From contig DUPN01000050.1 in NCBI GenBank assembly GCA_012838305.1, positions 19,962-83,961 of the forward strand: a DNA stretch of 64,000 nucleotides, read 5' to 3'. This stretch comes from Bacillota bacterium. GTDB taxonomy: Bacteria; Bacillota; Limnochordia; Darwinibacteriales; Darwinibacteriaceae. The notes under the pieces were generated by a model. It was not told the origin of the DNA and searched no databases. It worked only from the letters and a program-made list of their open reading frames with translations. Each line of letters opens with the position of its first letter. Position 1 is the stretch's first letter. Shown piece by piece: positions 2,994 to 62,644 of the stretch. The position numbers and the translations under genes were made by a program.

Positions 2994-4958
2994 TTATTGC
3001 ATCAAGGCTCGCAGGAAGTCTCGGGCTAGGGGAGCTGCGGTTTGACCTCCAACTCCACCTTCTTCCACCAGAACCGCAAAGGCGATCCTTTGACCACTAG
3101 GTAGCTCCGTATGTCCGGCAAACCAGGCATGCATTCCTCCACCCACCACTTCAGCCGTCCCCGTCTTTCCAAAGACACTAAGACCAGCATCTCTTAAGAT
3201 CGTCCCTGTGCCCGTCAAGACCACATCTTGCAGCATTCCATTCATTTGAACCACCGTTTCTGGCTTCAAGGCAGCACTGGGCGGATCCAGCTCTCTGCCG
3301 CTGATGAGATGAACCGGGGGGACATGCCCGTCATTGGCGAACACGCTAAAGATCTGAGCAAGGTGCAACGGGGTTAGCAAGACCTGGTCCTGGCCAATGG
3401 AGGACCAGGCTAGGGCCACTCGGCTGCGCTGCGGCGTACCCACCTGTCCTGGAACCATGGGCAGCCCGAGCTGAAAGCTTTGATCCAAACCGAGGCGGGA
3501 AAAATATTCTTGCAATTTGGCCGCACCCAGATTCAAGCCCACCTGGGCCACGGTGGTATTAATCGACTCTACCACCGCTAGATGCAGATTATGTTCGCCA
3601 AAGACCTGTCTTTGATAATTGCGTACGATGTTACCCTCCACCACCAGTTCCCCAGAATCGGTGAAACTGCTTTCCGGTTCATAGAGCCCCTGGTCCAAAG
3701 CTGCAGCCACCGTTACCACCTTAAAGACAGAACCCGGCGGGTACAGTCCCTGCACAGCCCGGTTAAACATGGGGCGGCGCAAATCACCACTGAGCTCCTG
3801 CCAGCGCTCGGTACTGATCCCGCCCACGAAGTCATTGCCATCGTAGCTTGGCGTAGAGGCCAGGGCCAAAATGGCTCCGGTTTGGGCGTCCAAGACCACG
3901 AAGGCTCCAATGCGATCGCCTAAAGTGTCATGCGCCAGCCCTTGCAGGCGGCTGTCGATGGTGGTTACCACATCTTCCCCATCCAGCACCGGTTTTTCCG
4001 CCAGAAGGGTGCGGGAATCTCCCGTTATTACATGGAAACGGTAACCAGGGCGTCCCCGCAGCTGATCGTCTTGACTCTGTTCCAAGCCTGAACGTCCCAC
4101 GATCTCTCCACTCATGTATTCCCGCTCGGGATAGGCGTCCAACATAGCGGCGGTCACCTCACCAGGATAGCCAGTAATATGGGTGGCGTAGGCGCCCTGT
4201 GGGTAGCTTCGGGCCTCGACTCTTCGGAAAAAGATGCCTGGAATGGGCCGCAATACGGGATCGACCCGATGATACTCTGCCTCCCTGATGCGAATCAGGG
4301 GGACAAACCAGTGCCCCTGTACGCCGGGTGCTTGGTACTGTCTCTGTACATAGTCAGGATCAAGACCTAGTTCAGTCTGTAAAGCTGCCAACAGCCTGTC
4401 GGGATCCGTAATGCGATCAGGTTGGACACCCACGGCTACAAGACTTCCCTCCCCAGCCAGGATTTGGCCATCGCGATCCAGAATCTGTCCGCGTTTTGGC
4501 TCGAGGCGTTCCCTCATGTAGTCGGCTTGAAGTCCATAGGCAGGTAAGGGCAGGTTGTTCTCCCACTGCACCTTCCACTGATCGAAGATGGTCTGCCGTT
4601 TCAGGTGCAGGTTGGCCGTTACCACCATGGGTTCAAAATAACGGCTTTCATAGCGCAGCGCGAAGGTATAGACGGCATCTGTGTTCTCCTTGGAAAGGAG
4701 CGCAAAATCGCTCAGTTCCATCGACGACAGGCCGAAGGCTTGACCAAACTGACGATAGGCCTGTCCCAACTCGCCTGCGGGATAGGGCTCCCCTTGGTAG
4801 TACAGCTCTAGGCCATCAAGGTCTTCTGCCACAATCTGCTCCAGAAACGCTTCCGCCGTATCAGCCGGATCCTTTTGCAAATAATACCAGACCACAAACC
4901 CTCCTACAGCTCCTGCAACAAGGAGAATAACTACAGCTGCCAGCACAGACTTTTTCAT
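2994..4958 (-). CDS. Class B penicillin-binding protein with MecA-like N-terminal domain
   Basis: DD-transpeptidase that cross-links peptidoglycan outside the membrane. Order: one TM segment (about residues 4-26), an NTF2-like MecA_N domain (about 30-140), a PBP dimerisation domain (about 150-310) and a penicillin-binding transpeptidase domain (about 335 to the end). The three active-site motifs are present: SxxK in 'PPGSVFKVV', SxN in 'VESINTT' and KTG in 'FGKTGTAEV'. About 654 residues, normal for PBP2a/PbpC-like proteins. The track starts at GTG 4973, but that codon lies in the ribosome-binding stretch; ATG 4958 is 7 bases after GAGGAG. The MBL/HhH gene follows on the same strand. Confidence 0.92.
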   Translation of the reverse strand: MKKSVLAAVVILLVAGAVGGFVVWYYLQKDPADTAEAFLEQIVAEDLDGLELYYQGEPYPAGELGQAYRQFGQAFGLSSMELSDFALLSKENTDAVYTFALRYESRYFEPMVVTANLHLKRQTIFDQWKVQWENNLPLPAYGLQADYMRERLEPKRGQILDRDGQILAGEGSLVAVGVQPDRITDPDRLLAALQTELGLDPDYVQRQYQAPGVQGHWFVPLIRIREAEYHRVDPVLRPIPGIFFRRVEARSYPQGAYATHITGYPGEVTAAMLDAYPEREYMSGEIVGRSGLEQSQDDQLRGRPGYRFHVITGDSRTLLAEKPVLDGEDVVTTIDSRLQGLAHDTLGDRIGAFVVLDAQTGAILALASTPSYDGNDFVGGISTERWQELSGDLRRPMFNRAVQGLYPPGSVFKVVTVAAALDQGLYEPESSFTDSGELVVEGNIVRNYQRQVFGEHNLHLAVVESINTTVAQVGLNLGAAKLQEYFSRLGLDQSFQLGLPMVPGQVGTPQRSRVALAWSSIGQDQVLLTPLHLAQIFSVFANDGHVPPVHLISGRELDPPSAALKPETVVQMNGMLQDVVLTGTGTILRDAGLSVFGKTGTAEVVGGGMHAWFAGHTELPSGQRIAFAVLVEEGGVGGQTAAPLARDFLRALMQ

Positions 4959-5102
4959 AATGTCTCTCCTCACGTTTCAATCTTAAGGTATCGATCACAT
5001 CCTTCGAAGACAGGATCTGATTCCTGCCTTACGGACTCAAAAAACTCCATCATCCATGCTTAAAAGCGTTTTACCAACACTTCTCCTTGTCAACCCTTTT
5101 AC

Positions 5103-5132
5103 TTGACAGAATCCAAAGTAATATGCTATACT
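5103..5132 (+). promoter_or_regulatory. Sigma-A type promoter for the riboswitch-veg transcript
   Basis: TTGACA (5103-5108), an 18-base spacer, then TATACT (5127-5132) with an extended -10 (TGC before TATACT). It lies just upstream of the c-di-AMP aptamer and points to veg. Confidence 0.75.
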
Positions 5133-5159
5133 ATAGATACACCATTGCAGTGCGCCTAA

Positions 5160-5365
5160 GCGTTCGTATTGCGATGCTACGATCTCCGAATATCATGGAT
5201 ATGGATGTTTCACAATGTGAGACATCAGTGCCGGCCATATGGCACAGCTTGCAGAGCAAGCAAAATGACAGCGGGGGAACCAATTTTGTGGGGTGAATCT
5301 TGCTTCGGCAGGAAGGGCAACTTGGATGCCCTAATCCGTCAGCTAACCTCGTAGGAGTATGCCAA
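5160..5365 (+). promoter_or_regulatory. ydaO/yuaA-type cyclic di-AMP riboswitch
   Basis: The leader carries the most conserved blocks of the ydaO-yuaA aptamer: 'CTCCGAAT', then 'ACAGCGGGGGAACCAATTTT', 'GGGGTGAATC', a variable hairpin 'AGGGCAACTTGGATGCCCT' and 'CCGTCAGCTAACCTCGTAGG'. Spacing fits the family. It is preceded by a good promoter and followed directly by a rho-independent terminator before veg, so ligand binding would be expected to reduce veg expression, as for known members. The 5' boundary is approximate; CTACGA near 5180 can pair with TCGTAG near 5350. Confidence 0.9.
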
Positions 5366-5409
5366 GCGCGATCACTGAGACTGAGGTCTCAGCGACTAGC
5401 GCTTTTTTT
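5365..5409 (+). terminator. Riboswitch expression-platform terminator
   Basis: Nested hairpin AGCGC...CTGAGAC-TGAG-GTCTCAG...AGCGCT followed by seven T. It lies between the c-di-AMP aptamer and veg and is the likely ligand-controlled terminator. Confidence 0.85.
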
Positions 5410-5469
5410 GTCCCCGGGATCAAATCCCGCTCCGATAGACGAGAACTAACTAGAAGGGGTTGAAGATCA

Positions 5470-5730
5470 ATGGCTGTAGAAAAGCAAACTACCATCGAAG
5501 ACATCAAACACCATCTAGAATCCAATCTGGGTAAGAAGGTGTTCATTCGCGCCAGCAAAGGCCGCCGTCGATTCCTAGAGTCCGAAGGTACACTCGTAGA
5601 AACCTATCCAAAACTCTTCGTCGTTGACCTAGATGAAACAGCGGTACGCCGACGCTCCTATACTTATGCAGACGTCCTAACCGCAAATGTTGAAGTAACC
5701 ATCGACAACAAGAGGGTCGGTTCACACTAG
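5470..5730 (+). CDS. veg: Veg family protein
   Basis: 86-residue Veg protein, full length for the family. It has the conserved opening and core 'IKHHLESNLGKKVFIRASKG' and 'RRRSYTYADVLT'. In Bacillus subtilis, Veg is abundant and affects biofilm matrix expression; its biochemical role is unsettled. The ATG lies after AGAAGGGGTTGAAG. Its leader contains a strong promoter, a c-di-AMP riboswitch and a terminator, so expression is probably set by c-di-AMP, tying it to cell-wall and osmotic signalling. A strong bidirectional hairpin follows. Confidence 0.93.
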   Translation: MAVEKQTTIEDIKHHLESNLGKKVFIRASKGRRRFLESEGTLVETYPKLFVVDLDETAVRRRSYTYADVLTANVEVTIDNKRVGSH

Positions 5731-5754: not shown

Positions 5755-5786
5755 CAAAAAACCAAGGGCCCATCCCTTGGTTTTTT
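5755..5786. terminator. Bidirectional terminator between veg and the HD hydrolase
   Basis: CAAAAAACCAAGGG-CCCAT-CCCTTGGTTTTTTCT: A-rich on one side, T-rich on the other, so it can end both convergent genes. Confidence 0.85.
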
Positions 5787-45137: not shown

Positions 45138-45223
45138 TGGTGCAGGCGGAGAGAGTCGAACTCTCACGGGGGTTGCCCACTAGATCCTAAGTCTAGCGCG
45201 TCTGCCAATTCCGCCACGCCTGC
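45138..45223 (-). tRNA. tRNA-Leu (anticodon TAG)
   Basis: Minus strand begins GCAGGCGTGGCGGAATTGGC; the anticodon stem-loop CTAGA-CTTAGGA-TCTAG gives TAG. It has a class II variable arm, T-arm GAGAGTTCGACTCTC, acceptor CGCCTGC, discriminator A and an encoded CCA. Confidence 0.96.
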
Positions 45224-45236
45224 ACATCATGGTAGA

Positions 45237-45312
45237 TGGTGAGCCATCCGCGACTCGAACGCGGGACACCCGGATTAAAAGTCCGGTGCTCTACCGACTG
45301 AGCTAATGGCTC
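45237..45312 (-). tRNA. tRNA-Lys (anticodon TTT)
   Basis: Minus strand GAGCCATTAGCTCAGTCGG..., anticodon stem-loop CCGGA-CTTTTAA-TCCGG gives TTT. T-arm CGCGTTCGAGTCGCG, acceptor ATGGCTC, discriminator A, encoded CCA. First in the tRNA-Lys-tRNA-Leu transcript. Confidence 0.97.
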
Positions 45313-53929: not shown

Positions 53930-54007
53930 TGGGGTGAGTAACCGGATTCGAACCGGCGACCTCCAGGGCCACAACCTGGCGCTCTAACCAACTGAGCTAT
54001 ACCCACC
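53930..54007 (-). tRNA. tRNA-His (anticodon GTG)
   Basis: Minus strand GGTGGGTATAGCTCAGTTGG..., anticodon stem-loop CCAGG-TTGTGGC-CCTGG gives GTG. The extra 5' G (position -1) opposite the discriminator C is typical of tRNA-His. Encoded CCA. Last of four tRNAs. Confidence 0.97.
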
Positions 54008-54015
54008 GTTTTGCT

Positions 54016-54091
54016 TGGTGCGCCTGGCAGGAATCGAACCTGCGGCACTCGGATTAGAAGTCCGATGCTCTATCCCCTGAGCTACAGGCGC
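54016..54091 (-). tRNA. tRNA-Arg (anticodon TCT)
   Basis: Minus strand GCGCCTGTAGCTCAGGGG..., anticodon stem-loop CGGA-CTTCTAA-TCCG gives TCT. T-arm CAGGTTCGATTCCTG, acceptor CAGGCGC, discriminator A, encoded CCA. Confidence 0.97.
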
Positions 54092-54108
54092 CTCTTGTTA
54101 GCTAGGAA

Positions 54109-54182
54109 TGGAGCGGGTGATGAGAATCGAACTCACATAGCCGGCTTGGAAGGCCGGTGCTCTACCATTGAGCTACACCCGC
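54109..54182 (-). tRNA. tRNA-Gly (anticodon TCC)
   Basis: Minus strand GCGGGTGTAGCTCAATGG..., anticodon stem-loop CCGGC-CTTCCAA-GCCGG gives TCC. T-arm TGAGTTCGATTCTCA, acceptor CACCCGC, discriminator T, encoded CCA. Confidence 0.97.
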
Positions 54183-54190
54183 ACGATACA

Positions 54191-54268
54191 TGGTCGGGGC
54201 GAGAGGATTTGAACCTCCGGCCTCCTGCTCCCAAGGCAGGCGCGCTAGCCAAACTGCGCCACGCCCCG
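54191..54268 (-). tRNA. tRNA-Pro (anticodon TGG)
   Basis: Minus strand CGGGGCGTGGCGCAGTTTGG..., anticodon stem-loop CCTGC-CTTGGGA-GCAGG gives TGG. T-arm GGAGGTTCAAATCCTC, acceptor CGCCCCG, discriminator A, encoded CCA. First of the four. Confidence 0.97.
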
Positions 54269-62295: not shown

Positions 62296-62644
62296 GGGGG
62301 TGAATCAGTTTCGACGTGGGTAGGAAGAGCATCAGAAGCGAGCCGAGGTCCCCAATGCCGCGTTAAAAGTGGGAAAGCATTAACTGCAAACAATAATTAC
62401 GCCTTAGCTGCTTAGTTCAGCTAACGTCCCTTGTTTCTCTGTCTGTTAGAAACAAGACCGACGCCAACTTACAGACTACCCTTTAGGCCTTGCCCGGAGC
62501 CCGAAGGGGAACTTTACGGGCTGGTTCGTCCTTTGGCTGGCCACAAGGCAGAAGGATGAACGAGAACTAACTTTGTGGCTGCGCTCGGAGATGCTGGTGT
62601 AATTTCACTTGCGGACAGCGGTGCAACTCCGCTCACCTCCACCA
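62296..62644 (+). ncRNA. ssrA: tmRNA (SsrA)
   Basis: Transfer-messenger RNA of 349 bases. 5' end GGGGGTGAATCAGTTTCGACG; 3' end GACAGCGGTGCAACTCCGCTCACCTCCACCA, whose T-arm (GGTGCAACTCC) and acceptor CACCTCC pair with GGGGGTG (one G-U); CCA is encoded. The tag ORF starts at GCA 62386 and reads ANNYALAA before TAG 62413, so the added peptide is (A)ANNYALAA, with the canonical C-terminal ALAA recognised by ClpXP. Directly downstream of smpB, with its own promoter and terminator. Confidence 0.96.

Follow-up and report, generated by a model that had tools for sequence, protein, structure and literature searches.

The c-di-AMP riboswitches treated in PMC9337991 and PMC7857571 are OFF switches. White et al. 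have predicted that a riboswitch whose aptamer overlaps its terminator acts as an ON switch and have demonstrated this in vitro for Na+, whereas the c-di-AMP aptamer of Dehalobacter, which lies apart from its terminator, is predicted and has been shown in vitro to act as an OFF switch (PMC9337991). At the protein level, c-di-AMP acts on K+ transport in B. subtilis with an inhibitory effect on importers and a stimulatory one on exporters (PMC7857571). The locus described here lies in the window, that is, the whole 64-kb stretch of DNA analysed, and carries a lineage-specific Veg paralogue gene (veg2) under a c-di-AMP riboswitch of a probable ON-type subclass, ligand binding and switch direction being predicted from sequence. 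Its features are collected in Table 1.

Table 1. Features of the veg2 locus (window coordinates)
Feature	Position	Strand	Basis
Sigma-70-type promoter: TTGACA (5103–5108), 18-nt spacer, TATACT (5127–5132), TG before the –10	5103–5132	+	Sequence match, 11 of 12
5' leader hairpin of 12 bp, preceding the aptamer	5143–5176	+	Folding
c-di-AMP (ydaO/yuaA) aptamer RF00379; P1 5184–5187/5354–5357	5182–5373	+	69.6 bits, gathering cut-off 38
P2-loop expansion, 72 nt, lineage-specific; tandem mini-hairpins 5204–5226, 5228–5245, 5247–5261	5196–5267	+	Covariance alignment, folding
Pseudoknot 5' strand CUUGG, P6 loop	5321–5325	+	Partner strand changes in step outside the order
Pseudoknot 3' strand CCAAG, 3' tail; AAG common to the terminator left arm	5362–5366	+	Pairing with CUUGG
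Intrinsic terminator, –21.6 kcal/mol as folded; hairpin 5364–5404, U-tract 5403–5409	5364–5409	+	Folding
Ribosome-binding site AAGGGG	5454–5459	+	Read in sequence
veg2, 86-aa VEG paralogue	5470–5730	+	PF06257, 86.9 bits
Terminator hairpin closing the unit after veg2, 13 bp and T-run	5756–5786	+	Sequence, folding

The RF00379 aptamer is real and ends 96 nt upstream of the veg2 open reading frame. A covariance search of the leader alone aligns model positions 9–134 with an E-value of 1.9e-16, and a default scan of the 64 kb finds the core alone (model positions 30–114, 67.3 bits, E-value 1.9e-13) because of the 72-nt hairpin-rich insert in the P2 loop. Since the same loop is expanded by different hairpin inserts in the congeners G001, G006 and G007 and is 16–21 nt long in most other relatives, the insert is a peripheral expansion. 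The promoter, which looks constitutive, would start transcription at about 5139–5141, and the same –35/–10 arrangement can be read in the sequences of the g1 and g4 relatives. At the position of the 5' hairpin, most relatives of family f1 fold a hairpin of different sequence. The fold of the leader has a z score of –3.6, and no shuffled sequence reaches the native value. A 6-bp alternative pairing in the minimum free energy fold of the leader, CUACGA/UCGUAG, was dropped since it seemed unconserved by eye. The first-pass annotation had described a full promoter, a clear ydaO–yuaA aptamer, an attached terminator and a strong terminator past veg, and all four are found in the positions given in Table 1; that the attached terminator also overlaps a pseudoknot strand had not been recognized.

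The second CCGAA motif, which is common in RF00379 and not strictly conserved, reads CCUAA in the window aptamer, and the same reading is found in 38 of 45 elements within the order as against 2 of 46 outside it. Its P1 stem shows a GGAG variant. Since CCUAA is a single-base change in a motif that does not strictly define the family, membership of RF00379 by score stands. The change bears, however, on the predicted ligand binding by the window aptamer and so counts against the ON reading given below. The loss of the conserved G of this motif in most elements of the order, together with the GGAG variant, raises the alternative that the aptamer senses c-di-AMP weakly or binds a related ligand. 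This alternative is improbable, because the scores lie far above the gathering cut-off, the remaining conserved aptamer motifs are kept, the antiporter genes behind other such leaders fit c-di-AMP, and elements with an unchanged CCGAA motif share the overlap between pseudoknot and terminator (L120, L122, L124, L132, L167 and L191). The ligand of the window aptamer is presumably c-di-AMP.

The gene behind the riboswitch had been annotated as veg. The encoded protein does belong to the VEG family, matching PF06257 over positions 2–72 of the 73-position profile with a score far above the cut-off of 25, and PDB entry 3fb9 is a solved relative (E-value 1.2e-05), but the gene is a paralogue and the canonical veg lies elsewhere in the same genome. 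This second copy (contig C81 of G000) scores 100 bits as against about 86 bits for the window copy, has no aptamer, and has ksgA-like and spore-coat SipL-like genes as neighbours, as named from their sequences. The window copy is therefore neither at the conserved veg locus nor the top-scoring copy of its genome, and the veg2 proteins of family f1 form a separate clade (support 85/99), the copies of f3 being divergent. Canonical veg as the riboswitch target was accordingly ruled out. By sequence, Veg2 is a Veg-type small protein and veg2 is a divergent second veg restricted to one order.

A survey of 37 genomes of the order, counting each veg gene preceded by a same-strand RF00379 element, found veg2 behind the aptamer in 21 genomes, of which 17 belong to family f1 and 4 to f3; the named relatives are uncultured Bacillota MAGs. 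Every veg2 in these genomes sits behind RF00379, so the survey of relatives proposed by the first-pass annotation shows the aptamer to be retained in all 21 carrier genomes. Twenty of these also hold a canonical veg without an aptamer, G020 showing the riboswitch copy alone, and three f1 genera (G011, G012/G018 and G013) hold canonical veg alone. No aptamer lies upstream of canonical veg in any of the 37 genomes. Outside the order, no veg with an upstream aptamer was found among the RF00379 matches listed (at least about 80 bits, coordinates compared by eye) for 150 genomes of the phylum, 107 of which include veg, and a phylum-wide link between veg and the riboswitch was dropped for this reason. 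In the distant genome G134 (C149, 12443–12670), canonical veg is followed on its own strand, after about 180 nt, by an RF00379 element that presumably serves the next gene. The earlier claim of a link between c-di-AMP and Veg thus holds as an association of the aptamer with veg2, but it cannot be extended to ordinary Veg, because the target is the divergent, order-restricted second gene and no aptamer was found upstream of the canonical gene in the 37 genomes of the order or among the matches listed for the genomes sampled elsewhere. The first-pass annotation had doubted that veg is a known member of the ydaO regulon. In agreement with this, a search of open-access text found no naming of veg as a c-di-AMP riboswitch target, and it is within this literature that the target is new.

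The outer stem of the intrinsic terminator, AAGCGC/GCGCUU, begins within the 3' strand of the pseudoknot that joins the P6 loop to the 3' tail. Outside the order, both strands of this pseudoknot change together (for example, CUCUUUC/GAAAGAG). The left arm of the terminator starts inside CCAAG in all 21 veg2 leaders, with a 3-nt overlap in 20 of them, and all 19 other terminator-bearing riboswitches of f1 and f4 are overlapped as well. Among terminator-bearing elements outside the order, there is no overlap in 27 of 29 of the phylum sample and 8 of 10 of the class sample (35 of 39 in total). The window terminator does not stand apart from the aptamer and pseudoknot as the separated platform of an OFF switch does. 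When CCAAG is blocked in the fold, the terminator weakens from –21.6 to –15.5 kcal/mol; this cost of 6.1 kcal/mol is the same in most relatives, and the block leaves 2–3 unpaired nucleotides before the U-tract.

Since the terminator and the pseudoknot overlap, an ON switch is predicted by the rule of PMC9337991. The promoter would transcribe the c-di-AMP aptamer, with the intrinsic terminator as the expression platform. Without ligand, the nascent AAGCGC would pair with GCGCUU, leading to termination before veg2. When c-di-AMP is bound, P1 and the CUUGG/CCAAG pseudoknot would be held, withdrawing AAG from the base of the terminator, and what is left of the stem, being less stable and ending short of the U-tract, would allow the polymerase to read through into veg2. 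We assign a probability of roughly 0.6 to this reading, in which c-di-AMP would turn veg2 on through competition between terminator and pseudoknot; such a direction would be unusual for a c-di-AMP riboswitch. The overlap is, however, limited to AAG, and the blocked terminator remains at –9 to –20 kcal/mol in the leaders for which the right hairpin was taken, so that it might still work. The survival of this inner stem is compatible with an ordinary OFF switch, in which bound c-di-AMP would break up an unseen antiterminator and so favour termination, and veg2 would be made at low c-di-AMP (K+). The ydaO riboswitches of PMC9337991 and PMC7857571 are OFF switches, and veg2 is divergent from the K+ uptake genes trkH–trkA in most f1 relatives. 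Such an arrangement seems rather unlikely here, since the overlapping layout is the one that predicts ON (PMC9337991), and since no upstream pairing of the terminator left arm that would form a conserved antiterminator is consistently above shuffled sequences, in a test of low power that likewise does not distinguish the separated OFF-type control leaders.

The genes behind the two kinds of leader also speak against an OFF switch, because leaders with the layout of the window precede antiporter genes and not importer genes. Within the order, overlapped leaders precede Na+/H+ exchanger genes, an assignment that comes from Pfam for L116 and from sequence inspection for the rest, and their targets include a Na+/H+ exchanger together with a P-II protein. 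Outside the order, they precede Mrp-type (L197) and SulP (L196 and L200) genes, two further SulP cases being adjacent or ambiguous (L198 and L199). All 13 separated leaders that were checked precede genes for TrkH/KtrB, a KimA-like permease, lysine 2,3-aminomutase, octopine dehydrogenase or a histidine kinase. The split between antiporters behind overlapped elements and K+ uptake and beta-lysine/compatible-solute synthesis behind separated ones fits the ON/OFF rule, although the segregation is partly phylogenetic since the Na+/H+ exchanger cases all come from one order. These observations lead us to lean slightly towards a structurally defined subclass of c-di-AMP riboswitches that act as ON switches through direct competition of the pseudoknot with the terminator and complement the OFF type, the overlapped elements governing ion antiporters and a tiny-protein regulon that includes a Veg paralogue, and the separated ones governing K+ uptake and compatible-solute synthesis.

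The other three aptamers of the window's genome precede an operon of a Na+/H+ exchanger and P-II, a Zn-ribbon mini-protein gene and an 'HPRQK' mini-protein gene. If the ON reading is correct, this antiporter operon and the two small-protein genes, which have the same leader type, would be switched on together with veg2. At L116 (1487–3101, minus strand), a Na+/H+ exchanger gene with a P-II-like gene lies behind a c-di-AMP riboswitch. DarA, a PII-superfamily protein of B. subtilis, binds c-di-AMP. Counting in favour of the reading given above, the window's genome encodes two diadenylate cyclases. In many f1 genomes, the gene that immediately follows a c-di-AMP riboswitch encodes a conserved protein of about 50–70 residues that contains an LExHPRQK motif and matches no Pfam family (L114, L118, L120, L122, L125, L126 and L129; contig C9 in the window's genome). 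In g1 and G010, a separate c-di-AMP riboswitch precedes the gene for a tiny Zn-ribbon-like protein (MKVCPDC...; L115, L117 and L127).

Extra small genes lie between the riboswitch and veg2 in G008, G009, G014, G015, G016 and G033. All six operons contain a gene for a beta-sandwich protein of about 105 residues, and four (G008, G014, G015 and G016) contain a gene for a 59-residue CxxC protein, which is similar to the Zn-ribbon protein and is the first gene of the operon. In sister genera, the same riboswitch stands ahead of a small operon of Zn-ribbon, CnaB-like and veg2 genes. The beta-sandwich protein (LPDPKPGN...GLETVYDVCY) has no Pfam family; its AlphaFold model has a pLDDT of 79, and the nearest folds are CnaB/pilin-type domains. 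All seven copies in 61 genomes lie behind RF00379 (L048, L050, L054, L056, L058, L073 and L131), including that of G025, which lacks veg2.

In most f1 relatives, the riboswitch–veg2 unit is divergent from trkA–trkH, followed by an HD-domain gene and feoA–feoB. In the window, a penicillin-binding-protein gene (2994–4973) replaces the trkA–trkH side, and the HD-domain gene, feoA and feoB are retained. This replacement and the 72-nt P2 insert might be taken as signs of a decaying leader, in which the switch would be vestigial and veg2 effectively constitutive or silent. Decay is very improbable, because the core motifs, pseudoknot, terminator and promoter are all intact, the insert lies in a peripheral loop that varies in functional-looking relatives too, and the Veg2 protein is conserved. 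Elsewhere in the window there are a tmRNA gene (RF00023, 172.9 bits; 62296–62644) and several tRNA genes on the minus strand (45141–45312 and 53933–54268).

To our knowledge, the role of the Veg family is unsettled. A duplicated Veg under a riboswitch, beside K+ transport genes in most relatives, offers a testable K+/osmotic setting for the family, and the neighbours and the switch suggest that Veg2 may have a role in K+/osmotic adaptation. If c-di-AMP riboswitches do turn genes on, import and export would be controlled reciprocally at the RNA level, as they are at the protein level. The aptamer–veg link of the first-pass annotation has thus come through the covariance and conservation analyses, but its gene proves to be an order-restricted paralogue and the overlapping layout that predicts ON had escaped it.

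Among known systems, the VEG family (PF06257; canonical Veg, PDB 3fb9) accommodates the whole 86-residue Veg2, but Veg2 forms a separate paralogous clade at another locus behind a riboswitch, whereas the canonical gene, found near ksgA, has no aptamer. In the tandem Na+/c-di-AMP riboswitch of Dehalobacter, the c-di-AMP aptamer likewise has an intrinsic terminator of its own, but there the two are separated and form an OFF switch (PMC9337991). The window leader shares with the ydaO/yuaA leader (RF00379) the P1 stem, the multi-junction core, the CCGAA-type motifs, the pseudoknot between the P6 loop and the 3' tail and a downstream intrinsic terminator; it differs in the CCUAA and GGAG variants, the expanded P2, the VEG-paralogue target, and a pseudoknot 3' strand that also serves as the terminator base, the arrangement from which an ON switch is predicted.
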